In this document: positions 6,737 to 61,850 of the stretch, piece by piece
Layout of the letters: each line of letters begins with the position of its first letter
Position numbering within the stretch: the first letter of the stretch is position 1
NCBI RefSeq assembly: GCF_017308015.1
Contig: NZ_JAFKFW010000004.1
Coordinates: forward strand, 202,403-266,402
DNA from: Allobosea sp.
GTDB taxonomy: Bacteria; Pseudomonadota; Alphaproteobacteria; Rhizobiales; Beijerinckiaceae
Direction of reading: 5' to 3'
DNA: 64,000 bases
Notes under the pieces: generated by a model
What the model was told of the DNA's origin: nothing
Seen by the model: only the letters and a program-made list of their open reading frames with translations
Database searches by the model: none
Position numbers and translations under genes: made by a program

Positions 6737-8233
6737 TCATGCCGCGTCGGTTTCGTCGCCGTTCGATTCGCTCTCGATCAGCCCGTAATCCTTGAGCTTG
6801 CGGTAGAGCGTCGAGCGGCCGATGCCGAGCTTGCGCGAGACCTCGGACATGTGGCCTCGGTAATGTGCGAGCGCGAAGGTGATGATCTCGCGCTCGAGCT
6901 CATCGAGCTTGCGCATGTCGGAGCCGGCGACGAGGTCGAGCGCGTTGGGATCGCGCACCGGCATCTGGATGATGCGCGGCGGCGGCTCGCCTTGCCCCTC
7001 GGAGCGGGAAAGCGGGGCGGGGGCTGGCGGAATGCGGACCTCGTAGCCGTCCATCTGCGCAGCGATCTGCGGGAATTCGGTGATGTCGAGCTCCGGCCCG
7101 TCGGCCAGGACCACGGCGCGGAACACGGCATTCTCGAGCTGGCGGACATTGCCCGGCCAGTCATAGCCGGTGATCAGGGCGGCGGCCTCAGCAGTGAGCC
7201 CGGTGAGCTTGCGGCCCTCCTCGGCGGCGAAGCGGGCGAGGAAGCCGCGGGCGAGATCGGCGATGTCCTCCCGGCGCTGGCGCAAGGGCGGCAGTGTGAT
7301 CGGGAAGACGTTCAGGCGGTAGTAGAGATCCTCGCGGAACTCGCCACGCTTCACCTGATCGAGCAGGCTCTTGTTGGTGGCCGAGATCAGGCGGATGTCG
7401 ACGCGCACAGACTTCTTGCCACCGACGGGGTCGACCTCGCCCTCCTGGATGGCGCGCAGCAATTTGACCTGCGCATCGAGCGGCAATTCGCCGATCTCGT
7501 CGAGGAAGAGCGTGCCGCCATTGGCCTCGACGAACTTGCCGAGATGGCGCTCGGTCGCGCCGGTGAAGGCACCCTTCTCATGGCCGAACAGGATGGATTC
7601 GACGAGGTTATGCGGGATCGCGCCGCAATTCACGGTGACGAAAGGCTTGCCCTTGCGGTCGCTGGAGCCCTGGATCGCGCGCGCCAGCACCTCCTTGCCG
7701 ACGCCGGACTCCCCTTCGATCAGGATCGGGATGTTCGATTTCGCCGCGCGCTCGGCCAGCCTGATGACACGCGCCATGTCCGGGCTCTTCGTCGCGAGAT
7801 CGCGGAAACCCAGCGTGTTCGAGGCCCGGCGCTTGATATGGCGCAATTCATGTTCGAGCGCGCCGAGCTTCAGCGCATTGCGCAGCGAAACCTGCAGGCG
7901 TTCGGCCCCGACGGGCTTGACCACGAAATCTACGGCGCCGGCTCGCATGGCTGAAACGACGGTTTCGATCGAGCCGTTGGCGGTCTGGACGATGACGGGG
8001 GTCTCGCAGCCGCGTTCGCGGAGCGCCGCCAGCACGCCCATGCCGTCGAGGCCGGGCATGTTGAGATCGAGCACGACCGCGCTGAAACGCTCGCCCTCGG
8101 GTGCGCCGAGCAGGGTCAGTGCCGCTTCGCCGTTCTCGGCGGTCGCCACGTCGTAGCCGAAACGCTTCAGCATGGCGTCGAGCAGGCGGCGTTGGACGGG
8201 ATCGTCGTCGACGATGAGGACGGTGTCTGTCAT
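6737..8233 (-). CDS. Sigma54-dependent NtrC-family response regulator
   Basis: A 498-residue activator. Receiver domain 1-120 with phospho-acceptor Asp56 ([12 protein letters not shown]) and Lys106; AAA+ sigma54 interaction domain with Walker A GESGVGKE (about 174), the sigma54-contacting GAFTGA loop (221-226), Walker [10 protein letters not shown] and the GNVRQLEN sensor segment; Fis-type helix-turn-helix at the end ([19 protein letters not shown]). All hallmark motifs are intact. Start: ATG at 8233, with GAGG four bases upstream; a GTG at 8251 would add six residues. No histidine kinase gene is adjacent, so it is an orphan here. Its targets may include the tandem L,D-transpeptidase gene, but no evidence fixes this. 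Confidence 0.92.
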
Positions 8234-52251: not shown

Positions 52252-52572
52252 TCATGCGGAAATATCGACCTCGATATCGAGCAATGGTGCGTATTGCTGT
52301 GCGCCGAAAATGTCCGGATCACCGGCGCTGCCACTTGGGCGCAGCCGGTAGATTGTGAATTTGATCGCGCAGGCCGGGTCGTATTCGACGAATTCGGCGA
52401 TGCGACTCTGGTCGATTCCGTAAAGCGTCGCCACGGTGGCTGGCGTGAGGACCTTGCTGGCCCGCACGTGATCGTAGACGGCGCGATCAGTGAAGATGAT
52501 GTCGAAGGTGATCTTGTCGACGCCGGCATTCTTGCTGCGGATGGTCTTCGCAAGTTCGGATAGCTTCTTCAT
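52252..52572 (-). CDS. DUF4387 family protein
   Basis: A 106-residue soluble protein recognised as DUF4387 by its N-terminal LSELAKTIRSKNAGVDKITFDIIFTD and its pairing with DUF1446. Its stop is at 52252 and it starts 10 bases after the DUF1446 gene, so it is co-expressed. In known genomes this small protein accompanies AtuA-like proteins, probably as a subunit. Chemistry unknown. Confidence 0.85.
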   Translation of the reverse strand: MKKLSELAKTIRSKNAGVDKITFDIIFTDRAVYDHVRASKVLTPATVATLYGIDQSRIAEFVEYDPACAIKFTIYRLRPSGSAGDPDIFGAQQYAPLLDIEVDISA

Positions 52573-52582
52573 GATGAACCGC

Positions 52583-53941
52583 TCAAACGCCGATGGTTAC
52601 GGTGTGGGTGGGAAACAGCTCGAGGGGGTCGTCGACCGCCAGAGTGTGGTTGACGGTCCAGCGATAAGCCGGGGAGGCCTTCAGCACTTCGTCGAGCACG
52701 AACGCGACGCCTCCGGCGGTTCCTTTCACCTCGGGCAGGCGAGCATAGAAGAGCTGGCGCGTACCGGTCATGCAGACCTCCTCCGCCATCTCCACGGTCG
52801 GAGCAACGCCCTGCACGACGATGCAGAGCTCGTGGGCGGGTACCTTCACCGGCTCCAACTCGCCCATTACGCCGTTCTTGCCGAAGACATTGTAGAACAG
52901 CTCGTAGGGAGAGTTGCCGAAGCGCTCCGCCGTTTGCTGCTTGGCCCAGGCAATGACCTGATCGATATTCGCGATCGTGTAGGGATCCCGCACCGAGGCG
53001 ATGCCGACGAAACGTTCACCGGTCTTGCCAGCGCCTTCCAGTTTGACGCGGATACGCTCCGCCGGCTCGAAGCGCTGGCCCGTCACTTTCGTCGTACGCG
53101 CATCGATCTGCTCGTAGTGGCAGTTTCGCATGTCGAGGCGCCCGCCGGCGACGAATTCGTCATAGGGATTGGAGCGCTCATACATGGCGTGGCCGGAGAC
53201 CGATGCGATGGTACAGCGCTGGTCGGGATGCATGGCCGTCACGGTGACGCCAGACCCGGCTACCGCGCCCAGAACCGTTTCCTTCGCGCCATAGGGTTCC
53301 GCGCAGAATGAGGCGCATTCAAGCACCTTGCCGAGATAATAGGCATCGGCCTCGCTGGCGCCCCGGTGGAGGGCCGCGGCGGCAAAGATGGCACAATCGC
53401 TGGAGCGGCCGCCGATAATGACGTCGCAGCCTTCGTCCAGAAGCTTCATGAAGGGGTGGACGCCCGCCATCGCAACGATCCGTTCCGTGGCGTCGAGCTC
53501 GGCCTCGCTCAGGGCATCGCGGCCGTCCAGGCCGAGAACCGGATTGGAGCTGCCCACAGCCTTGCGGACGCGTTCCTTCTCGACCTCGGAATAGAAATAG
53601 CCCAGCTTGAACGGCGTGAGCCCGTGCTCGCTCGCGATCTCTCGAATGAGTTCGACATAGCGGTCGACGCGGCTGTTCGTGCCCGTGTCGCCCGACGAAC
53701 CGATGATCATCGGCACCCCGATGCGACGCGCGGCCAGCAGCATCGCTTCAAGATCCTGCCGCTGCCATGCCTCCGGCGAGGTGCAGGTGTCGGAACCAAG
53801 TGGCACCGGACCGATATCGTCGCTTCCCGAATCTGCCGCGATGAAGTCCGGCCCGGCCTCGACGCCGCGCAAGAAGCTCTCCAGCTTCAAGGGCGCAAAA
53901 CCCAGATGTCCGTTCGGGCAGATGATCTTGATCGATGACAT
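52583..53941 (-). CDS. DUF1446 (AtuA-like) protein
   Basis: A 452-residue cytosolic protein of the DUF1446/AtuA family. AtuA is named for acyclic terpene utilisation in Pseudomonas, but most relatives, including this DUF4387-paired type, have no proven activity. Visible segments: CPNGHLGFAPLKLESF, GSSGDTGTNSRVDRY, DEGCDVIIGGRSSDCAIFAAAAL and SVSGHAMYERSNPYDE. Start ATG 53941 follows GGGAGAATGCC; a long open frame upstream (to 54130) is not homologous and crosses the promoter. A -24/-12 element lies 42-56 bases upstream. Confidence 0.88.
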   Translation of the reverse strand: MSSIKIICPNGHLGFAPLKLESFLRGVEAGPDFIAADSGSDDIGPVPLGSDTCTSPEAWQRQDLEAMLLAARRIGVPMIIGSSGDTGTNSRVDRYVELIREIASEHGLTPFKLGYFYSEVEKERVRKAVGSSNPVLGLDGRDALSEAELDATERIVAMAGVHPFMKLLDEGCDVIIGGRSSDCAIFAAAALHRGASEADAYYLGKVLECASFCAEPYGAKETVLGAVAGSGVTVTAMHPDQRCTIASVSGHAMYERSNPYDEFVAGGRLDMRNCHYEQIDARTTKVTGQRFEPAERIRVKLEGAGKTGERFVGIASVRDPYTIANIDQVIAWAKQQTAERFGNSPYELFYNVFGKNGVMGELEPVKVPAHELCIVVQGVAPTVEMAEEVCMTGTRQLFYARLPEVKGTAGGVAFVLDEVLKASPAYRWTVNHTLAVDDPLELFPTHTVTIGV

Positions 53942-53982
53942 GGCATTCTCCCAGCGGCCTCGCGGCCGGACGCAGGAAGAAC

Positions 53983-53997
53983 TCAAGAACCGTGCCA
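53983..53997 (-). promoter_or_regulatory. Sigma54 -24/-12 promoter of the DUF1446 gene
   Basis: Minus strand reads TGGCACGGTTCTTGAG: a perfect -24 TGGCACG and -12 TTGA (consensus TTGC), spaced GG-N10-GA. The predicted start is about 30 bases before the ATG. Confidence 0.6.
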
Positions 53998-54079
53998 CGA
54001 TACGCCTTGTGCCAACCCTTTGATTAGGCAATGAATTCCGTCTGATCCGCCGTGATTGGCCCGAACTTGCCGGCCCTGC

Positions 54080-54094
54080 GCGTGAATTGCACGC
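54080..54094. promoter_or_regulatory. Candidate activator site upstream of DUF1446
   Basis: GCGTGAATTGCACGC, an imperfect palindrome about 85 bases upstream of the -24 element. It differs by one base from the GCGTGAATTTCACGC palindrome upstream of the binding-protein gene (61818-61832). Confidence 0.55.
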
Positions 54095-54126
54095 ATGGTG
54101 TGCGCGCTTTGCGCCGCGGCGGTTGG

Positions 54127-55107
54127 TCAATCGATGCTGAGCTTCAGCATCTGGTGGCGCAGGGCATGCCGGCTGAGGCCGAGTTCAGCAGCCGCTTCGT
54201 TCACGCTGCCATTGGCTGCGGCAAGCGCGCTCCTGATGAGGCTCGCCTGATAGTTTGCCGTTGCTTCGTGATAGTTGCGGCGCGGCTCGTCGCCCCCAAC
54301 GCTGCCCTGTCCTGGTTGCGCGCGATCGGCTCCCTGCACCTCCCGCACAATACGGGCCGGGAGATGTCGGAGCATGATGACATCCTCGTCCTCGAGGATG
54401 AAGATGCGCTCAAGCAGATTTTCGAGTTCGCGGACATTGCCCGGCCAGGCGTAGCGCCGGAATATCTCTGCGACCTCCGGCTCCAGCCCGCGAATGACCC
54501 GATTGTAGCGGCCGCTCAGGCGGCGCAGGAAATGATCGGTCAGGACGAAGACGTCATCGCCGCGCTCGCGCAGGGGCGGCATATTGATGGCGACGACCTG
54601 CAGGCGATAATAGAGATCCTCGCGAAACCGCCCCGCATTGACCTCCGAGAGCAGGATCCGGTTGGTCGCGGCAATGAAGCGCACATCGATCGCGACCGAA
54701 TCGGTGGCCCCGACGCGACGCAGGCGCTGGGTATCGAGGACGGTCAGCAGTTTCGCCTGCATGACGAGATTCATGTCCCGGATCTCGTCGAGGAAAATCG
54801 CCCCGCCATTGGCGGCTTCGATCAGACCGGATTTGCGGGCAACCGCTCCGGTAAAGGCACCTTTCTCATGCCCGAACAGCTCCGATTCCAGGAGTTGGTC
54901 GGGGATCGCGGCGCAGTTCACGTCGATGAATTGCTGAGAAGCGCGCGGCGATTGCTGATGGATGAGCCGTGCGATGAGGCCCTTGCCGGTTCCCGTCTCG
55001 CCGTAGACGATGACCGCGCGCGCGGCGCTTTTCGCGACGCGATCGATCAGACGCCTGACCTCGACGATCGAGCCGTGTTCACCGATGAGGCCCGCTTCAT
55101 ACGCCAC
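54127..55107 (-). CDS. Sigma54-dependent activator lacking a sensory domain
   Basis: A 326-residue protein from GTG 55107, 8 bases after the C45 gene's stop. It starts almost directly with the AAA+ domain: Walker A VYGETGTGKG, sigma54 loop GAFTGA (83-88), FLDEIRDMN, and PGNVRELENL; Fis-type helix-turn-helix ends it (VNEAAAELGLSRHALRHQMLKLS). No receiver, GAF or PAS domain is present, so its activity may be set by an effector protein or directly by expression. In-frame upstream start at 55206 would overlap the C45 gene by 92 bases and is less likely. Lies inside the transporter/DUF1446 operon, implying a local regulator. Confidence 0.88.
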   Translation of the reverse strand: MAYEAGLIGEHGSIVEVRRLIDRVAKSAARAVIVYGETGTGKGLIARLIHQQSPRASQQFIDVNCAAIPDQLLESELFGHEKGAFTGAVARKSGLIEAANGGAIFLDEIRDMNLVMQAKLLTVLDTQRLRRVGATDSVAIDVRFIAATNRILLSEVNAGRFREDLYYRLQVVAINMPPLRERGDDVFVLTDHFLRRLSGRYNRVIRGLEPEVAEIFRRYAWPGNVRELENLLERIFILEDEDVIMLRHLPARIVREVQGADRAQPGQGSVGGDEPRRNYHEATANYQASLIRSALAAANGSVNEAAAELGLSRHALRHQMLKLSID

Positions 55108-55114
55108 GCGATAC

Positions 55115-56200
55115 CTATTCGAATTGCGGTCGACACTCGAACGAATGCCACGGACTGCTACAGGGTTTGCCCGCCGAAAAGTAGAGGCGCCCCTCGGCGG
55201 GTGCAAACACCGAACAGGAGATGGTGTGCGAGTCCCCGTATTCGCCGTGGCGGCACAGCGCTTCCTGTCCCTGCTCCGGATGCGAACTCATGATAGCAAC
55301 GACCTCGTCGAACGAGAGGCTGCCCGTCCGTTGCCGGAGCCAGGACTGCAATCTGGCGTGACGGCCTCTGGTGCTCCTGACCGCCCTTTCGTCATCGGGA
55401 GCCAGCCAGGACGGGCCACATTCCCGGCTGACAAAATGATTGGTCCGCATCACGTAGCGTTCGCTGGTTTCGGCGGACCAGGCCCGGTGTCCGAGTTCGA
55501 CCGCAGCGCAGGCTCCCGACTTGTCTCCGAGGACGATGCTGCCGCCGCCCGCATGCGAGAGCCCGGCGATCATCCCCAGCGCCTCTTCCACGCTGCGGCA
55601 CTGCCACAGCAGCCGGGTCATCAGAAAATAACGCAGCAGGCCGGGGCCGTGGTCCCTGGTGGATACATGGGTATCGACCAGAGCCAACCCATGCGCATTC
55701 ATCCCGCTGGAAAAGGCGCCGGGGCTGCCGAGACTGCCGACGCACAACACCGCTTCGCCTGGCCTGGCCGGGTCACGGTGCAGGAAGACCCGCTGCAACT
55801 GGACATGTTCACCCCGGTAGTCCCGGTTCTTCACGACCAGGGGCCCCATGGGGCTGCCCGCGCCCCAGCTCCATGCCGTGCAGCCGTCCTGGGCGAGGTC
55901 GGCGAGGAGGCTCATGTGAAGATATGCGAGAACGTCCTCGACCGGCCGGCCGAAGCCATTCGCGACGCCCGCCAGTTCCTGCGCTCCCTCCGGGTCGATC
56001 TCGCTCAGCATCACCGCCTGCTGGGCTAGCAGGCCAGCGATTTCGGGCTTTCGGAGCTGACCCGCCGCCGCCTCCAGCCGGCTGTCGATCGCGTTCCGGA
56101 CGGCCGGTATGAGTTCGGCGGCAAAGGCCGACTGGGCAAGACCGCGCTCATAGGCGCTGCCCTCGAGGAGCAGCGGCGTCGCCGACATCGTTTCGATCAT
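55115..56200 (-). CDS. C45 family peptidase/acyltransferase
   Basis: A 361-residue Ntn-hydrolase of peptidase family C45 (acyl-CoA:6-aminopenicillanic acid acyltransferase group). The predicted N-terminal nucleophile is Cys107 in LAQDGCTAWSW, which should become the N-terminus after autocatalytic cleavage; also VVKNRDYRGEH, SGMNAHGLAL and GGGSIVLGD. Reactions hydrolyse or transfer acyl groups on amide bonds. Start overlaps the OppF stop (4 bases), so it acts downstream of the peptide uptake system; substrate may be an N-acylated peptide or amine. No signal peptide. Confidence 0.85.
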   Translation of the reverse strand: MIETMSATPLLLEGSAYERGLAQSAFAAELIPAVRNAIDSRLEAAAGQLRKPEIAGLLAQQAVMLSEIDPEGAQELAGVANGFGRPVEDVLAYLHMSLLADLAQDGCTAWSWGAGSPMGPLVVKNRDYRGEHVQLQRVFLHRDPARPGEAVLCVGSLGSPGAFSSGMNAHGLALVDTHVSTRDHGPGLLRYFLMTRLLWQCRSVEEALGMIAGLSHAGGGSIVLGDKSGACAAVELGHRAWSAETSERYVMRTNHFVSRECGPSWLAPDDERAVRSTRGRHARLQSWLRQRTGSLSFDEVVAIMSSHPEQGQEALCRHGEYGDSHTISCSVFAPAEGRLYFSAGKPCSSPWHSFECRPQFE

Positions 56201-57195
56201 GGGGCCTCGAGCAAGTGACAGGCCGCGGCGCTTTCAGGTCCCCGCGGGCGAAGAACCGGGGCTTCGACACGGCATCGGTCGAATACGAAGGGGCAGCGGG
56301 TGTGGAACTTGCACCCTGCCGGCGGCGAGAGGGGGGACGGCAGATCCCCCGACAGCTTCACCCGCTCACTCTTCTGCCGCACGTCGATTCGTGGAACGGA
56401 GGACAGCAGCGCTTTGGTGTAGGGGTGTTGAGGAGCCGTCAGCAGGCTCCGGCTCGGACCGGTCTCGACGATTTCACCGAGATACATCACGGCGATGCGG
56501 TCGCTGACATGGCCGATCACCCCGATATCGTGGGAAATGAAGATATAGGTCAGCCCGAGTTCGCGCTTGAGGGCCTTCAACAGGGAGATGATCTGCGCCT
56601 GCACCGACACGTCCAGCGCCGAGACCGGCTCGTCGCAGACCACCAGGCTCGGGTTGAGGATCAGAGCGCGGGCGATGCCGATGCGCTGGCGCTGCCCGCC
56701 GGAGAACTGGTGCGGAAACCGGTTGAGATACTCGCTTTTGAGGCCGACGCTCTCGATCATCGCTACGACCCGGTCGCGGATTTCCGACCGACGCGAAATT
56801 CCCTGGATCGCCATCGGCAGGCCAACGATATCGAGGACTGATTTGCGGGGGTTCAGGGAAGCATAGGGATCCTGGAAGATGATCTGCATGCGGCGGCGCA
56901 GCGCAGTCATCTCCCGATAAGGCAGCGCCGTAATGTCGGCTCCATCGAACACGATGCGGCCCGAGGTCGGCTCGTGCAAACGCAGCACGATCCGGGCGAG
57001 GGTGGATTTTCCGCAGCCGGACTCGCCGATCAAACCCAGGGTTTCGCCGGCCCGAACGGAAAAGCTCACTCGATCGACCGCTTTCAGTGCAAGGACCGGC
57101 TCGCGCGCGAGGCGTTGCAGAAGGCTGTTGTTCAGGTGGTAGGTCTTGGAAAGTTGGCTGACTTCGAGCAGTGGAGGCGTCTGCGCTTGGGTCAC
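56197..57195 (-). CDS. Oligopeptide/dipeptide ABC transporter ATPase (OppF/DppF)
   Basis: A 332-residue ATPase: Walker A LIGESGCGKSTLARIVLRL, Q-loop FQDPYASLNPR, signature FSGGQRQRIGIARAL, Walker B VVCDEPVSALD, and the C-terminal Cys-rich oligopeptide module (GCKFHTRCPFVFDRC) that may hold an iron-sulfur cluster. GTG 57195 follows AGGAGGT and overlaps the OppD stop (GTGA). Confidence 0.92.
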   Translation of the reverse strand: MTQAQTPPLLEVSQLSKTYHLNNSLLQRLAREPVLALKAVDRVSFSVRAGETLGLIGESGCGKSTLARIVLRLHEPTSGRIVFDGADITALPYREMTALRRRMQIIFQDPYASLNPRKSVLDIVGLPMAIQGISRRSEIRDRVVAMIESVGLKSEYLNRFPHQFSGGQRQRIGIARALILNPSLVVCDEPVSALDVSVQAQIISLLKALKRELGLTYIFISHDIGVIGHVSDRIAVMYLGEIVETGPSRSLLTAPQHPYTKALLSSVPRIDVRQKSERVKLSGDLPSPLSPPAGCKFHTRCPFVFDRCRVEAPVLRPRGPESAAACHLLEAP

Positions 57196-58199
57196 TGCGA
57201 GACCTCCTTCAGACGGGGGATCTCGTCGACCCGCAGGCAGCGGGCCTGGCGACCGGGCGCAACGGCGTTCATCGGGATGTCGCTTTGACACGCAGCCTGA
57301 CGGAACTCGCAGCGCTCGTAGAAGCGGCACATGCCGCCGAGATCGATCAGTTCCGGTACACGCCCCTCGATGGGGCGGATCGGAGCGTCGAGGTCCGACA
57401 ACCTGGGGATCAGCCCGATCAGGCCCCGGGTATAGGGATGCCGGGGCTGCTCGATCAGTTGCTGCGTCGGCCCCGTCTCGACAATCTGTCCGGCATACAT
57501 CACCGCGACCCGGTCCGTATGCTCGGCCACGACCCCGAGGTCGTGCGTGATGAGGACGACGCTCATGCCCAGTTCGCGGCGCAGGTCCCCGATCAGGTCG
57601 AGCACCTGCGCCTGGATCGTGACGTCGAGGGCAGTCGTGGGCTCGTCGGCGATCAGCAACTTGGGACGACAGGACAGGGCGATGGCGATCATGATGCGCT
57701 GGCGCATGCCGCCGGAAAACTGGTGCGGATAGTCGTCGATACGCCTCTCGGGGGCTGGAATGCCGACAAGCCGGAGCATCTCGACAGCGCGCTGCCGTGC
57801 CGCCTCGCGGCGCCCGCGCCCCGGCAGGCCGCCGGCATGGGCGAGGATCACCTCTTCGATCTGCTCGGCCACTCTGAGAGCCGGGTTGAGGGCCGTGAGC
57901 GCGTCCTGCATCGTCATGGCGATGTCGCGCCCGCGCAGGCTCCGCCAACCTTCGCTGTCCAGCCTGCGCAGATCGATGCCCTCGAAATGGATCGCCCCCT
58001 CTGCGATGTAGCCTGGGGGCCTGACCAGCCCGATCACGCTGGCGAAGGTGACGCTTTTGCCGGACCCGCTTTCGCCGACGATGCCCAGGCACTCTCCCGG
58101 GTAGACGTCGAGATCGACGCCATCGACGGCGGTGACCAGTCCCGCGCGCGTCGGAAAGCAGGTCTTCAGGCCACGGATCGAGAGGAGAGGAGCAGACAT
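57192..58199 (-). CDS. Oligopeptide/dipeptide ABC transporter ATPase (OppD/DppD)
   Basis: A 335-residue ATPase: Walker [19 protein letters not shown], signature [15 protein letters not shown], Walker [13 protein letters not shown] and a C-terminal oligopeptide module ([17 protein letters not shown]). Start ATG 58199 directly follows the permease stop (1 base between); further upstream in-frame residues are Arg/Pro-rich noise. Confidence 0.92.
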
Positions 58200-58200
58200 C

Positions 58201-59100
58201 TCAGTCGCTGAACTTCGGGTCGAAGGCATCACGCAGCCCCTGGCTGGCGACGTTGATCGAAAGCACAAGCAGAAGAATGGCGATGCCTGGAAATGTGGAG
58301 GCCCACCAGGCATCGAGAATGAAGGCGCGGCCATCGGCCACCATGGATCCCCATGACGCCGTCGGGGGCTGCACGCCGAGGCCAAGGAACGAGAGGCTTG
58401 CCTCGAGGATGATCACATGGGCCATGCGAATCGTCGACACGACGATGACCGGCGACAGGATGTTGGGCAGGATCTCCCTGACCATGATGTGAAGTCGCGG
58501 CGCGCCGACCGCGCGGGCGGCCTCGACATATTCCATCTCCCGTGCAGCCAGTACTTCACCGCGGACGACGCGCGCAGGAACCACCCACTCCTTGTAGACC
58601 AGTGCCAGGATGATGTTCTCAAGGCCCGGGCCCATCATCGCCATCAGGGCGATGGCAAAGATCAGATAGGGAAAGCCGAGCAGGATATCGATGACGCGCG
58701 AGACCAGAATGTCGACCCAGCCGCGCATATAGCCGGCGGCAAGGCCGAGCGCCGTCCCGACCGCCGTGGCGATGAGCACGACGACGACGCCGATCGCGAT
58801 CGAGACCCGGGCGCCGTAGATGATCCGGGACAGGATATCCCTGCCGAGGCCATCGCAACCCAGGAGATAGCTCCACTCGCCGCCTTCCATCCAGGCTGCA
58901 GGCTGGAGGCGACGCAGGAGATCGTTCTCGTCGGGATCATGCGGTGCGAGCCATGGTGCGAAGATCGCCATCAGGATGAACAATGCCACCACAATGGCCG
59001 CCAAAAGAGAGAAACGATCCGCCACAAAGCGGCGCAGGCTCTCCCAGGTCGGCGATCGCGTCGGCTTCTCCGGCGCGACCGATAGCGCGGCGGCGTTCAC
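58201..59100 (-). CDS. Oligopeptide/dipeptide ABC permease (OppC/DppC)
   Basis: A 299-residue permease with an N-terminal TM (LLAAIVVALFILMAIFAPWLA), a periplasmic loop (LLGCDGLGRDILSRIIYG is the OppC consensus), and the EAA-like loop YVEAARAVGAPRLHIMVREILPNIL. About six TM helices. Overlaps the DppB-type gene's stop by 4 bases. Confidence 0.92.
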   Translation of the reverse strand: MNAAALSVAPEKPTRSPTWESLRRFVADRFSLLAAIVVALFILMAIFAPWLAPHDPDENDLLRRLQPAAWMEGGEWSYLLGCDGLGRDILSRIIYGARVSIAIGVVVVLIATAVGTALGLAAGYMRGWVDILVSRVIDILLGFPYLIFAIALMAMMGPGLENIILALVYKEWVVPARVVRGEVLAAREMEYVEAARAVGAPRLHIMVREILPNILSPVIVVSTIRMAHVIILEASLSFLGLGVQPPTASWGSMVADGRAFILDAWWASTFPGIAILLLVLSINVASQGLRDAFDPKFSD

Positions 59101-60104
59101 AGGCGCACCCTCGGATTGAGCATCGTGTAAAGCAGGTCCGCGACGAAGTTCAGGAGCACGTAGGTCACCGCATAGAACAACACCGCCGCCTGGATGAGCG
59201 GGTAATTTCGGACGAAAATGCTCTCCACCACGAGACGGCCGAGCCCGGGCCAGCCGAAGACCGTCTCCACCACCATGTTCCCGCCGAGCAGCGACCCGGT
59301 CTCCATGGCCGCGACCGTGACGGTGGGAACGAGCGCGTTCTTCAACGCATGGCGCCAGAGGACACGCCGGCGCGAAATGCCCTTGGCATGGGCGAAGACG
59401 ATGTAGTCCGACCGCAAGACCTCGAGCATCGCCGCGCGCTGCACGCGGGTCAGGACCGCGGCCATCGGGAGGGCAAGCGTCAGCGCCGGCAGGATGATAT
59501 GAGACAGCGCGTTAGAAAAGCAGTCGGGCCGCCCGCGCAGCAAGCTGTCTATGGTCATCAACCTGGTTATCGGCGCGACTTCACAGGCGTAGTCCATGCG
59601 CCCGGATACCGGCAGCACCTGCATGTGAACCGCAAAAATCATGATCATGATGATGCCGAACCAGAAACCCGGCAGCGAAATACCGAACAGGGATCCAATC
59701 GCGGCCAGGCGATCGATGAACCTGTTCTTGTGAACTGCCGCGAGAACGCCGAGCGGAATGGAAACTGCGAGCGCGATCAGCAGCGCAGCCAGCGTCAGCT
59801 CGATCGTTGCCGGCAAGCGCTCGGCGATGACGTCGGTGACGGGGCGGCGATGAAAGAAGCTGAGCCCGAAATCCCCCGTCAGGGCATTGCCGAGGAAAAC
59901 CGCGAAGCGTTCCAGCGGCGGACGATCCAAGCCCATGTCGTGGCGCATCGCCTGCACCTGCTCGGGCGGGACCTGCTGCCCGGACAACATCACCTCCACC
60001 GGGTCGCCAGGCGTCAGGGCCATCATCACGAAGACGATGACGCTGACTCCGAGAAGGACCGGCAGGAGCTGAGCGGTGCGCCCCACGAGCGCCAGAACGT
60101 TCAT
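59097..60104 (-). CDS. Oligopeptide/dipeptide ABC permease (OppB/DppB)
   Basis: A 335-residue permease beginning TAQLLPVLLGVSVIVFVMM, with PGDPVEVML, the EAA loop YIVFAHAKGISRRRVLWRHALKNAL and GNMVVETVFGWPGLGRLVVESI, all DppB hallmarks. Six TM helices expected. Starts 36 bases after the binding-protein stop. Confidence 0.92.
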   Translation of the reverse strand: MNVLALVGRTAQLLPVLLGVSVIVFVMMALTPGDPVEVMLSGQQVPPEQVQAMRHDMGLDRPPLERFAVFLGNALTGDFGLSFFHRRPVTDVIAERLPATIELTLAALLIALAVSIPLGVLAAVHKNRFIDRLAAIGSLFGISLPGFWFGIIMIMIFAVHMQVLPVSGRMDYACEVAPITRLMTIDSLLRGRPDCFSNALSHIILPALTLALPMAAVLTRVQRAAMLEVLRSDYIVFAHAKGISRRRVLWRHALKNALVPTVTVAAMETGSLLGGNMVVETVFGWPGLGRLVVESIFVRNYPLIQAAVLFYAVTYVLLNFVADLLYTMLNPRVRL

Positions 60105-60140
60105 TGCGTTGCCTCCGGCACCGTCAGCCCGCCAGACCGT

Positions 60141-61670
60141 TCACTTCACGCAGACATCGTGAAGATTGATCCGGCTGTCCGCGCTCGGCTCCCAGCCGCT
60201 GACGCGCTTCGACACGCCGTAGATGTCCTGCGGAAGCCACATGAAAATCCACGGGGCCTCACCGTTCACGATGGTCTGCGCCTTCTTGTAGAGATTGGCA
60301 CGCTTGGTCTGATCGAGCTCGACATCGGCACTGTCGAGCAGCGCATCGACCTCCTTGTTGGAATAGAAGGCGCGGTTGCCGCGTCCTCCGGTGCGAAGCG
60401 TCGGCACGAAGATGTCGGACGGATCGAGGGAGCCGTTGCCCCATGAGGTGAACATCATGTCGCCGGTCTTTTCGCCGGCCGGAGCCCATTTGGCCTGCAG
60501 CGTCGAAGTTTCGCTGATGTTCACCTTGGCGCGGATGCCCGCCTTGCTCAGCATGCCTGCGATCGCACCCACCACATCCTTGAACGGCCCTTCCGCATCG
60601 AGGGTGACATCGACGCCGTCCGGATAGCCCGCTTCAGCCAGAAGCTTCTTCGCCGCGGCCACATCGAATTGATAGGCCGGCAGATCGGAATTGAACCCGA
60701 AGGCATCGGGACTCATCACGCCATTGAGAGGGACGGCTGTTCCCAGCAGGACCCTGTCGATGATGAGCGCCCTGTCGACTGCCATGTTGGCGGCCTTTCG
60801 AACGCGCAGATCGTCGAAGGGCTTCTTGGACGTGTTGAGCGCGACAAAGAATGTCCGGGTGCCGTTGACCTTCATTACCCGGGTTTTGCCGTTCGCCTCT
60901 ACCTTCTTCATGTCGTAAGGTGGAAGCTCGTTGATGATGTCGACCTCGCCGGCGAGCAGCGCCGCGACCCGGGAGGCATTTTCGGGGATGACGCGGAAGA
61001 TCACGCGCTCGACGCAGGCCTTGCCCACCGGCGGAATATCGGTCGCTCCGCCGTAATAGCTGTCATGCCGCTCCATGATCACCGTGTCGCCCTTGCGCCA
61101 TTCGACGAGTTTGAACGGGCCGGTGCCGTTCGCCTGGGTCGCCAACCCCTGCGGCCCGGCCTTCTCGGTGAAAGCCTTGCTGACCACCTCCTGGACCGGC
61201 AGCATGGCGGGCAGGATCGGCCACGGCTCCTTCAAGGTGAAGCGCACGGTCCGGTCGTCGACTTTCGTGATCGATTTCACCGGACCGACGAGGTCTTTCC
61301 GAGGGCTGGTCTTCCCGTCGAGAGCGCCTTCCAGGGTCAGGCGCTGGAAGGTGAACACGACATCGTCTGCGGTCATCAACGACCCGTCATGGAATGTCAC
61401 GCCCGACCGGAGGGTGAAATCATAGGTCACGGGATCGACCTGTTTCCACGATTCCGCCAGCTCCGGCACAATATTCATCTTCGAATTGCGCGTCAGCAAA
61501 CCATCGTAAAGGTTGCGAATAATGGTTTCGGTGTCGCGATTGCGATGATTGCCTGGGTCGAGGGTCAAGGCATCTGTTGTAAAGCCGACGCGCAGCTCCG
61601 TGGCGGTGCCGGAAACCGGCAGCGCCGCAGCCAATGCGAGAACCGTAATCGAAAGCGCCTTGCGAAGCAT
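60141..61670 (-). CDS. Oligopeptide/dipeptide ABC substrate-binding protein
   Basis: A 509-residue solute-binding protein of family 5 (DppA/OppA): signal MLRKALSITVLALAAALPVSG, then VGFTTDALTLDPGNHRNRDTET, YDFTLRSGVTFHDGSLMTADDVVFTF and NGTGPFKLVEWRKGD. It captures peptides or related amines in the periplasm. Start ATG 61670 has GGAGGGAAAA; in-frame frame upstream to 61793 crosses the promoter. A -24/-12 promoter lies 59-74 bases upstream, making this the first gene of the locus. Confidence 0.93.
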   Translation of the reverse strand: MLRKALSITVLALAAALPVSGTATELRVGFTTDALTLDPGNHRNRDTETIIRNLYDGLLTRNSKMNIVPELAESWKQVDPVTYDFTLRSGVTFHDGSLMTADDVVFTFQRLTLEGALDGKTSPRKDLVGPVKSITKVDDRTVRFTLKEPWPILPAMLPVQEVVSKAFTEKAGPQGLATQANGTGPFKLVEWRKGDTVIMERHDSYYGGATDIPPVGKACVERVIFRVIPENASRVAALLAGEVDIINELPPYDMKKVEANGKTRVMKVNGTRTFFVALNTSKKPFDDLRVRKAANMAVDRALIIDRVLLGTAVPLNGVMSPDAFGFNSDLPAYQFDVAAAKKLLAEAGYPDGVDVTLDAEGPFKDVVGAIAGMLSKAGIRAKVNISETSTLQAKWAPAGEKTGDMMFTSWGNGSLDPSDIFVPTLRTGGRGNRAFYSNKEVDALLDSADVELDQTKRANLYKKAQTIVNGEAPWIFMWLPQDIYGVSKRVSGWEPSADSRINLHDVCVK

Positions 61671-61728
61671 TTTTCCCTCCGATCCGCGGCCGTGGTTTCT
61701 GCCATTCTGAGCGCGGTGAAAACCATTT

Positions 61729-61744
61729 CGCAATTCGCATGCCA
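61729..61744 (-). promoter_or_regulatory. Sigma54 -24/-12 promoter of the transporter operon
   Basis: Minus strand reads TGGCATGCGAATTGCG, with GG-N10-GC spacing intact (-24 TGGCATG against consensus TGGCACG; -12 TTGC). Predicted start at about 61718, giving a leader of about 50 bases to the binding-protein ATG. Confidence 0.7.
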
Positions 61745-61817
61745 GCGATGGATAGCGTGAATCATTGCGCCAATCGCGGTTATGGCGGCCCACCTGACGG
61801 ATGATTGTACCTCTTGT

Positions 61818-61832
61818 GCGTGAATTTCACGC
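61818..61832. promoter_or_regulatory. Upstream activator palindrome 1
   Basis: GCGTGAA-T-TTCACGC, a perfect 7-bp inverted repeat with 1-base centre, about 75-90 bases upstream of the -24 element. Confidence 0.6.
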
Positions 61833-61837
61833 GACCT

Positions 61838-61850
61838 GTGAAAATTTCAC
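61838..61850. promoter_or_regulatory. Upstream activator palindrome 2
   Basis: GTGAAA-A-TTTCAC, a perfect 6-bp inverted repeat, centred 19 bases from palindrome 1, about two helical turns. Together they suit binding of an activator oligomer. Confidence 0.55.

Follow-up and report, generated by a model that had tools for sequence, protein, structure and literature searches.

A candidate self-contained σ54 cassette for amide uptake and hydroxy-acid cleavage in an Allobosea genome

Activators of σ54-dependent transcription that carry no signal domain have been grouped as type Ic, and the part of Francke et al. (2011) that we consulted (PMC3162934) places PspF, HrpR/HrpS, and LafK in this group. 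Such proteins can be held by inhibitors acting in trans: in passages of PMC7057263, PspA holds PspF and HrpV holds HrpS. In another case, given in an excerpt of PMC9650030, RtcA and RtcB bind the CARF domain of the σ54 activator RtcR. As to catabolism, a section of PMC4682846 gives pyruvate and acetate as the products of citramalate lyase and notes, next to the gene for methylaspartate ammonia-lyase, a DUF1446 gene whose function is not known. Here we describe a nine-gene operon encoding an Opp-type importer, a C45 hydrolase, a σ54 activator, AtuA (DUF1446), and DUF4387. It lies in a 64,000-nucleotide stretch of DNA from Allobosea sp. (contig NZ_JAFKFW010000004.1, positions 202,403 to 266,402), referred to below as the window. 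Our overall reading, to which we assign a probability of about 0.65, is that the operon is a self-contained catabolic cassette. In this cassette an amide would be imported, opened by the C45 hydrolase, and passed to a hydroxy-acid lyase, all under an autoregulated activator with no recognised sensor.

The activator, its promoters, and its operators

The activator contains the GAFTGA motif and a C-terminal Fis-type helix-turn-helix (HTH), both named in a preliminary description of this DNA; the HTH scores above the HTH_8 cut-off, and the Walker A sequence is GETGTGKG. No Pfam domain was found ahead of its AAA+ domain as a sensor, even when the window protein was read from 55206, where a TTG is a possible start; the likely start is a GTG. 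The preliminary description had passed over this absence of a recognised sensor. The part common to the orthologous activators begins just after C45, in L070 as elsewhere (compared loci are given by number). In the window and in some orthologues (such as L038 and L043) the open frame runs upstream into the C45 coding sequence, and a short N-terminal extension is possible from these reading frames. All 16 activators compared share the HTH core RHALRHQ. Within the same genome, the nearest relatives are 41-45% identical and score at most 224.6 bits versus 704.2; by sequence comparison, the activator is a separate lineage. Elsewhere in the window (7040-7777, minus strand), a further AAA+ domain of the σ54 activator kind is encoded, with 45% identity to the activator of the operon.

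Elements of the -24/-12 type lie before the gene for the solute-binding protein (SBP) and before AtuA, where the preliminary description had placed them (GG-N10-GC and GG-N10-GA, respectively). Such elements were scored over the 11 specified positions of TGGCAC-N5-TTGCW, no more than 130 bases from the start, with the GG and the G at -12 required. In loci that have the activator, all 14 SBP promoters and all 10 AtuA promoters preceded by a gap scored 9-11. None of 14 control starts (five AtuA starts with no such gap, the AtuA start of L042, and eight starts of activator-less loci) reached 9, and all scored 7 or less. Compared with 500 shuffles each, 22 of the 24 elements had p values of 0.05 or below; the two window elements, tested against shuffles of their own regions, each gave p = 0.014. 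rpoN was found in every one of the 22 genomes searched, this genome included.

The second promoter goes with a gap ahead of AtuA. The distance from the stop codon to AtuA is 116-286 bases in gapped orthologues and 20-33 bases in five gapless loci, and none of these five has a -24/-12 element before AtuA. The earlier proposal of two transcription units is thereby upheld for the window and for loci with the longer gap plus an intact activator, and does not extend to the five gapless loci. At -12 the window AtuA promoter has GA where the other nine gapped AtuA promoters all have GC, so it may be weaker than its orthologous copies. In the held-out loci, six of six promoters scored at least 9: L070 (9 and 9), L073 (11 and 10), L075 (10), and L076 (10). 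L075 and L076 are sister Cupriavidus plasmids, and a third Cupriavidus record was left out. Among the other starts scored, a score of at least 9 was seen in neither of two starts in L074, which is governed by LysR, nor in the one start of L072, nor in the two other starts of L075.

Palindromes of the GTGAA type are present upstream of both -24/-12 elements, as had been noted. A matrix built solely from the two 15-base sites of the window superseded a plain mismatch count and was tested on other loci. Its mean score was 13.9 over 13 SBP regions, where shuffles averaged 6.3 (z 11.5), and 12.2 over nine AtuA regions, where shuffles averaged 6.2 (z 8.0); in activator-less loci the z values were 0.3 and -1.4. 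A 16-base even palindrome was rejected as the operator model, since it fitted worse than odd palindromes of 15 and 17 bases. Of the six promoters in held-out loci, five have an operator match with p of 0.016 or below, the exception being L070 AtuA (p = 0.082). In four congeneric species, the pair of adjacent operators and the -24/-12 element are nearly identical, set in DNA that has diverged both between and above them. In Cupriavidus, a member of another class, three sites of the GCGTG...CACGC type were seen by eye above the AtuA promoter, with a best p of 0.002 on each plasmid. Hence the comparison that the preliminary description had proposed came out in its favour: orthologous loci that have the activator also have both promoters and GTGAA/GCGTG-type palindromes, and loci that lack the activator lack the promoters.

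Loci that have changed regulators extend this pattern. L044 to L047 contain eight genes and no activator; a LysR gene lies upstream in L044 and L045 and a GntR gene in L046, and no upstream regulator was recognised in L047. In a tree of AtuA, L048, which has the activator, branches with these activator-less loci, and L074, which has LysR, falls just outside the main activator clade, at node support of only 0.50-0.56. L042 is drawn inside that clade. It consists of C45, activator, AtuA, and DUF4387 without orthologous Opp genes, with a distant Opp set nearby. Its activator (L042:8484-9461) has lost GAFTGA (the sequence there is GKLSNV) in a genome that retains rpoN, the 176 bases upstream of its AtuA contain no -24/-12 element, and the operator score of this single region was 14.3, with a shuffle maximum of 16.7. 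The L042 activator is possibly a natural conversion to a σ54-independent regulator. In the loci seen, the activator and the -24/-12 elements are gained and lost together, which matches what direct regulation predicts.

From this evidence we infer operator binding, autoregulation, and the nature of the signal as follows. There would be two -24/-12 promoters, one ahead of the SBP gene and one ahead of AtuA where the gap exists, and some 80-130 bases above each of them the activator would bind palindromes of the form GCGTG-N5-CACGC, thereby driving its own transcription together with all nine genes. Since it has no recognisable sensor domain, control of its activity would have to come from its own abundance or from a partner acting in trans. 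The proposal that the activator turns on its own operon, so that control comes from within, thus has good support from the comparative promoter and operator evidence.

The predicted pathway and its alternatives

Two pieces of the operon indicate what the pathway may do. The C45 protein belongs to the autoproteolytic hydrolase family by its score and its Gly-Cys nucleophile (Cys107, predicted, after Gly106; both invariant in 18 of 18 aligned sequences), and self-cleavage and amide hydrolysis are predicted for it. AtuA and DUF4387, which are encoded side by side, match the two chains of one solved complex over their full length (9erq_A, E 5.9e-75, residues 3-441; 9erq_B, E 3.7e-22, residues 3-103). 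The identity of 9erq (and of 9evf) as citramalate lyase subunits A and B, CmlA and CmlB, is taken from the names of the PDB entries. Because DUF1446 and DUF4387 are relatives of CmlA and CmlB, a hydroxy-acid probably undergoes C-C cleavage at a later step of the pathway. AlphaFold2 models made from the window and L005 sequences only had a mean pLDDT of 32.1 (AtuA) and 36.1 (C45), too low for use.

The same genome also holds a closer relative of CmlA, in a second AtuA/DUF4387 pair accompanied by a LysR gene (L049:9233-14000, contig C4). For this reason, the operon pair probably has a different substrate. Near L049 lies an ABC importer resembling those for spermidine/putrescine, as judged by eye from the sequences. 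L049 was rejected as a target of the activator: its one-mismatch palindrome lies inside the LysR gene, and there is no -24/-12 element.

For the operon itself, we infer the order of the chemical steps and the class of substrate. The Opp-type importer would bring in an amide- or peptide-linked compound, and the C45 hydrolase, presumably in the cytoplasm, would split the amide and free a carboxylic acid that is likely to be a tertiary hydroxy-di- or tricarboxylate. AtuA/DUF4387, as a divergent relative of CmlA/CmlB, would then cleave this acid to a 2-oxo acid plus acetate, or to a similar pair. The preliminary description had spoken of an unknown peptide or amide; this remains conjectural, and is now sharpened to a substrate whose later breakdown would involve C-C cleavage of a hydroxy-acid by CmlA/CmlB relatives.

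Related clusters with other importers bear on this order of steps. On the Cupriavidus plasmids (L075 and L076), the activator, AtuA, and DUF4387 lie beside a TctC receptor (assigned by Pfam in L075; the L076 copy is 95% identical). Within the 21 kb read, orthologues of Opp and C45 are absent; L076 has one ATPase of 35% identity about 6 kb away. Such a layout is expected if Opp and C45 merely import and free the acid. A more distant cluster on a Variovorax plasmid (L077:3280-8356) encodes a TPP-binding protein, a TctC receptor, AtuA, DUF4387, and an RraA family protein. On the simplest view, TctC-linked clusters import the acid in free form, and the Opp cassette imports an amide for C45 to open first. 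Terrarubrum L074, where AtuA/DUF4387 occur without C45 and a different ABC importer stands in front of AtuA, is not counted as support for the acid route on account of an Opp-type set upstream. As a separate observation, the L042 cluster (L042:5319-15646) lies beside genes for an ornithine-cyclodeaminase/mu-crystallin protein, an FAD oxidoreductase, a CoA-transferase, and an acyl-CoA dehydrogenase, neighbours that are a possible lead to the substrate.

A number of results weigh against the cassette reading. The compared loci are kin, and their counts are not independent events. The threshold of 9 of 11 was fixed only after a first look at the loci, which is why the held-out loci weigh more, and two of the 24 elements exceed p = 0.05 (L048 SBP, 0.07; L032 AtuA, 0.052). 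With the plain mismatch count the operator signal was weak, and many single orthologous regions were not significant. With the 15-base matrix, the SBP regions of L037 and L038 score little differently from shuffles (7.3 and 7.1); by eye, they contain a longer-spaced variant of the operator. Gapless AtuA regions, which are largely activator coding sequence, still gave an operator z of 3.7, and L072 has an operator-like match (p = 0.012) without a -24/-12 element, on a cut contig that may or may not have carried the activator. On the chemical side, the L049 paralogue scores 371 bits to CmlA versus 256 for the operon AtuA. In addition, the Opp-type set of L074 (L074:1-4519; OppB-F, 37-50% identical) lies just upstream of LysR, so that acid and Opp routes are not cleanly separated.

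The lower score to CmlA also favours an alternative in which regulation is as described and AtuA/DUF4387 catalyse something other than a lyase reaction (hydration, isomerisation, or a step on a CoA ester), making the pathway unreadable from CmlA/CmlB. In the same direction, Pfam names AtuA only after terpene utilisation, and the ornithine-cyclodeaminase/mu-crystallin and FAD oxidoreductase neighbours in L042 point to amino-acid chemistry. However, both subunits are homologous over their full length to the solved pair, and the TctC receptors and the RraA family protein beside relatives fit hydroxy-acids; RraA relatives include aldolases. We consider this alternative unlikely, while granting it appreciable weight.

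Improbable, by comparison, is a global or cross-acting σ54 regulator with this operon as one target among others. Room for distant targets does exist: GCGTGNNNTTCACGC occurs without mismatch at four places in the genome, two of them at the operon, and with up to one mismatch it has 80 matches, a minority of them examined, versus 13 for the reversed control pattern. Nevertheless, when GTGNNNTTCAC was sought 70-100 bases ahead of TGGYA, six places were found (control, 0), and only the operon's two complete a -24/-12 element of 9 of 11. Likewise, of 11 operator loci checked, the operon's three have the element and the other eight reach 8 at most. Candidate regulon members at other palindromes of the genome were set aside, with no -24/-12 score of at least 9 at those checked. 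A search of 72,556 plasmids for the activator returned only four records at E of 1e-90 or below, and in all four the activator is 184-216 bases from AtuA (between matched ends). A last alternative, in which the palindromes and -24/-12 elements arose by chance and the operon is transcribed from ordinary promoters, can draw on the shortness of the motifs in GC-rich DNA, the often weak operator tests of single regions, and the GA at -12 of the window's second promoter. The conserved positions, the co-occurrence with the activator, and the held-out loci in another class make it very improbable indeed.

The nine genes and their recurrence

The nine genes, all on the minus strand between 52252 and 61670, are tightly packed (Table 1). 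The gaps are 36 bases between SBP and OppB, -4 for OppB-OppC, OppD-OppF, and OppF-C45, 7 for C45-activator, and 10 for AtuA-DUF4387; OppC-OppD is -2, or 1 with the OppD ATG start at 58199. The 185 bases between activator and AtuA form the sole long gap, and the second promoter lies inside it. This recount bears out the preliminary description of nine same-strand genes, mostly overlapping or within 40 bases, and Pfam and NCBIfam bear out the families it gave for all nine. The importer is of the Opp/Dpp type by Pfam (SBP_bac_5, two BPD_transp_1 permeases, and two oligo_HPY ATPases). None of its five subunits reaches the curated cut-off of a named Opp substrate subfamily among the NCBIfam matches listed (for OppD and OppF, the best 25 of 184 and the best 25 of 190). 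The best NCBIfam match of the SBP is GsiB, at 192.8 bits, far below the cut-off of 594. Upstream of the operon lies a cytochrome P450 gene (62704-63780, minus strand), with no relative among the flanking open reading frames (ORFs) compared.

Table 1. Genes and control elements of the operon (window coordinates)
Feature	Coordinates	Strand	Evidence or remark
Operator 2, first promoter, GTGAAATTTTCAC	61838..61850	-	
Operator 1, first promoter, palindrome GCGTGAAATTCACGC	61818..61832	-	odd centre
-24/-12 element before SBP gene, TGGCATGCGAATTGCG	61729..61744	-	conserved in orthologues
Solute-binding protein (SBP), first gene	60141..61670	-	SBP_bac_5 (family 5), Pfam PF00496 298.1 bits
OppB/DppB-type permease	59097..60104	-	PF00528, PF19300; Opp2B 348 bits vs cut-off 350
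OppC/DppC-type permease	58201..59100	-	PF00528, PF12911
OppD-type ATPase (ATG start taken)	57192..58199	-	PF00005, PF08352
OppF-type ATPase	56197..57195	-	PF00005, PF08352
C45 autoproteolytic acyltransferase/hydrolase (predicted)	55115..56200	-	NCBIfam NF040521 159.5 bits (cut-off 85); PF03417
σ54 enhancer-binding protein, AAA+ plus Fis HTH	54127..55107	-	PF00158 222 bits; HTH_8 23.5 bits (cut-off 22)
Operator, second promoter, GCGTGCAATTCACGC	54080..54094	-	
-24/-12 element before AtuA, TGGCACGGTTCTTGAG	53982..53997	-	-12 is GA, not GC
AtuA / DUF1446, citramalate lyase subunit A homologue	52583..53941	-	PF07287 80.9 bits; 9erq_A match
DUF4387, citramalate lyase subunit B homologue	52252..52572	-	PF14330 124.4 bits; 9erq_B match

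Gene order was read in the window, L005 (same genome as L030), L031-L048, L070-L073, L075, and L076. All nine genes occur in the same order in 16 loci: the window, L005, L031-L038, L040, L041, L043, L048, L070, and L073, the last being a Ciceribacter plasmid. Thus, the gene order that the preliminary description suggested looking for was found in 15 other genomes or records. Of the remaining loci, L039 runs off the end of its contig and its activator gene is interrupted by a stop codon; in L071, C45 and AtuA lie too close together for an activator to fit between them, and the L072 contig breaks off at C45. Within the family, 11 of 298 genomes have a C45 relative (E of 1e-40 or below); the figures are six of 397 for the order and nine of 385 for the class (E of 1e-60 or below for both), and three of 398 for the phylum (profile, E of 1e-60 or below); each count includes this genome, and some genomes overlap between counts. 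No C45 relative was found in any of 20 listed species of the same genus. With few genomes per rank and no listed same-genus species carrying a C45 relative, the distribution is patchy.

When flanking ORFs were clustered, no gene beyond the nine marked the flanks across genera; a few unlabelled clusters recurred, and most of these were confined to a single genus or consisted of overlapping frames. The lack of common flanks fits a cassette that moves as a block, and lateral spread is probable. Among the literature matches listed, there was no occurrence of DUF4387 and no paper on the operon or on CmlA/CmlB.

Comparison with known systems

What the operon offers is a σ54 regulon clean enough to test: a single activator, with no recognisable sensor, would act through two promoters and defined operators to run a catabolic pathway. 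How such activators are gated, which we regard as the most interesting question here, could thus be tested directly in a system unrelated to stress response or type III secretion. In this setting DUF1446 and DUF4387 are also linked to a family of hydroxy-acid lyases, and the search for the substrate gains a genetic handle. Every activator locus met adjoins AtuA/DUF4387, including the Cupriavidus plasmids without Opp and C45 orthologues. For this reason one may entertain the idea, doubtful as it is, that AtuA or the small DUF4387 subunit binds the activator and holds or releases it according to its occupancy by hydroxy-acid, as a trigger enzyme acting in the way that PspA acts on PspF. RtcR would be the precedent for pathway enzymes gating an activator, although RtcR has a sensor domain and the operon's activator has no recognised one.

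By its sequence, the activator fits type Ic. Like PspF, HrpR/HrpS, and LafK, it combines a σ54 AAA+ domain containing GAFTGA with a C-terminal Fis HTH, has no recognised N-terminal sensor, and has putative target promoters of the -24/-12 type with sites upstream of them. It differs from PspF and HrpS in sitting within a transport-and-catabolism operon, where no trans inhibitor like PspA or HrpV was recognised, and its score to the PspF equivalog TIGR02974 is 248.3 bits versus a cut-off of 443.55. The C45 protein resembles the isopenicillin N acyltransferase type in its NCBIfam C45 proenzyme score, which is over the cut-off, and in its invariant Gly-Cys. Compared with the solved C45 acyltransferases/hydrolases, it gives only weak sequence matches (3gvz, E 2.4e-8; 2x1d, E 0.015). 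AtuA and DUF4387 share full-length homology with both subunits of CmlA/CmlB (PDB 9erq, 9evf), and are set apart from them as a divergent clade whose partner genes are Opp and C45.

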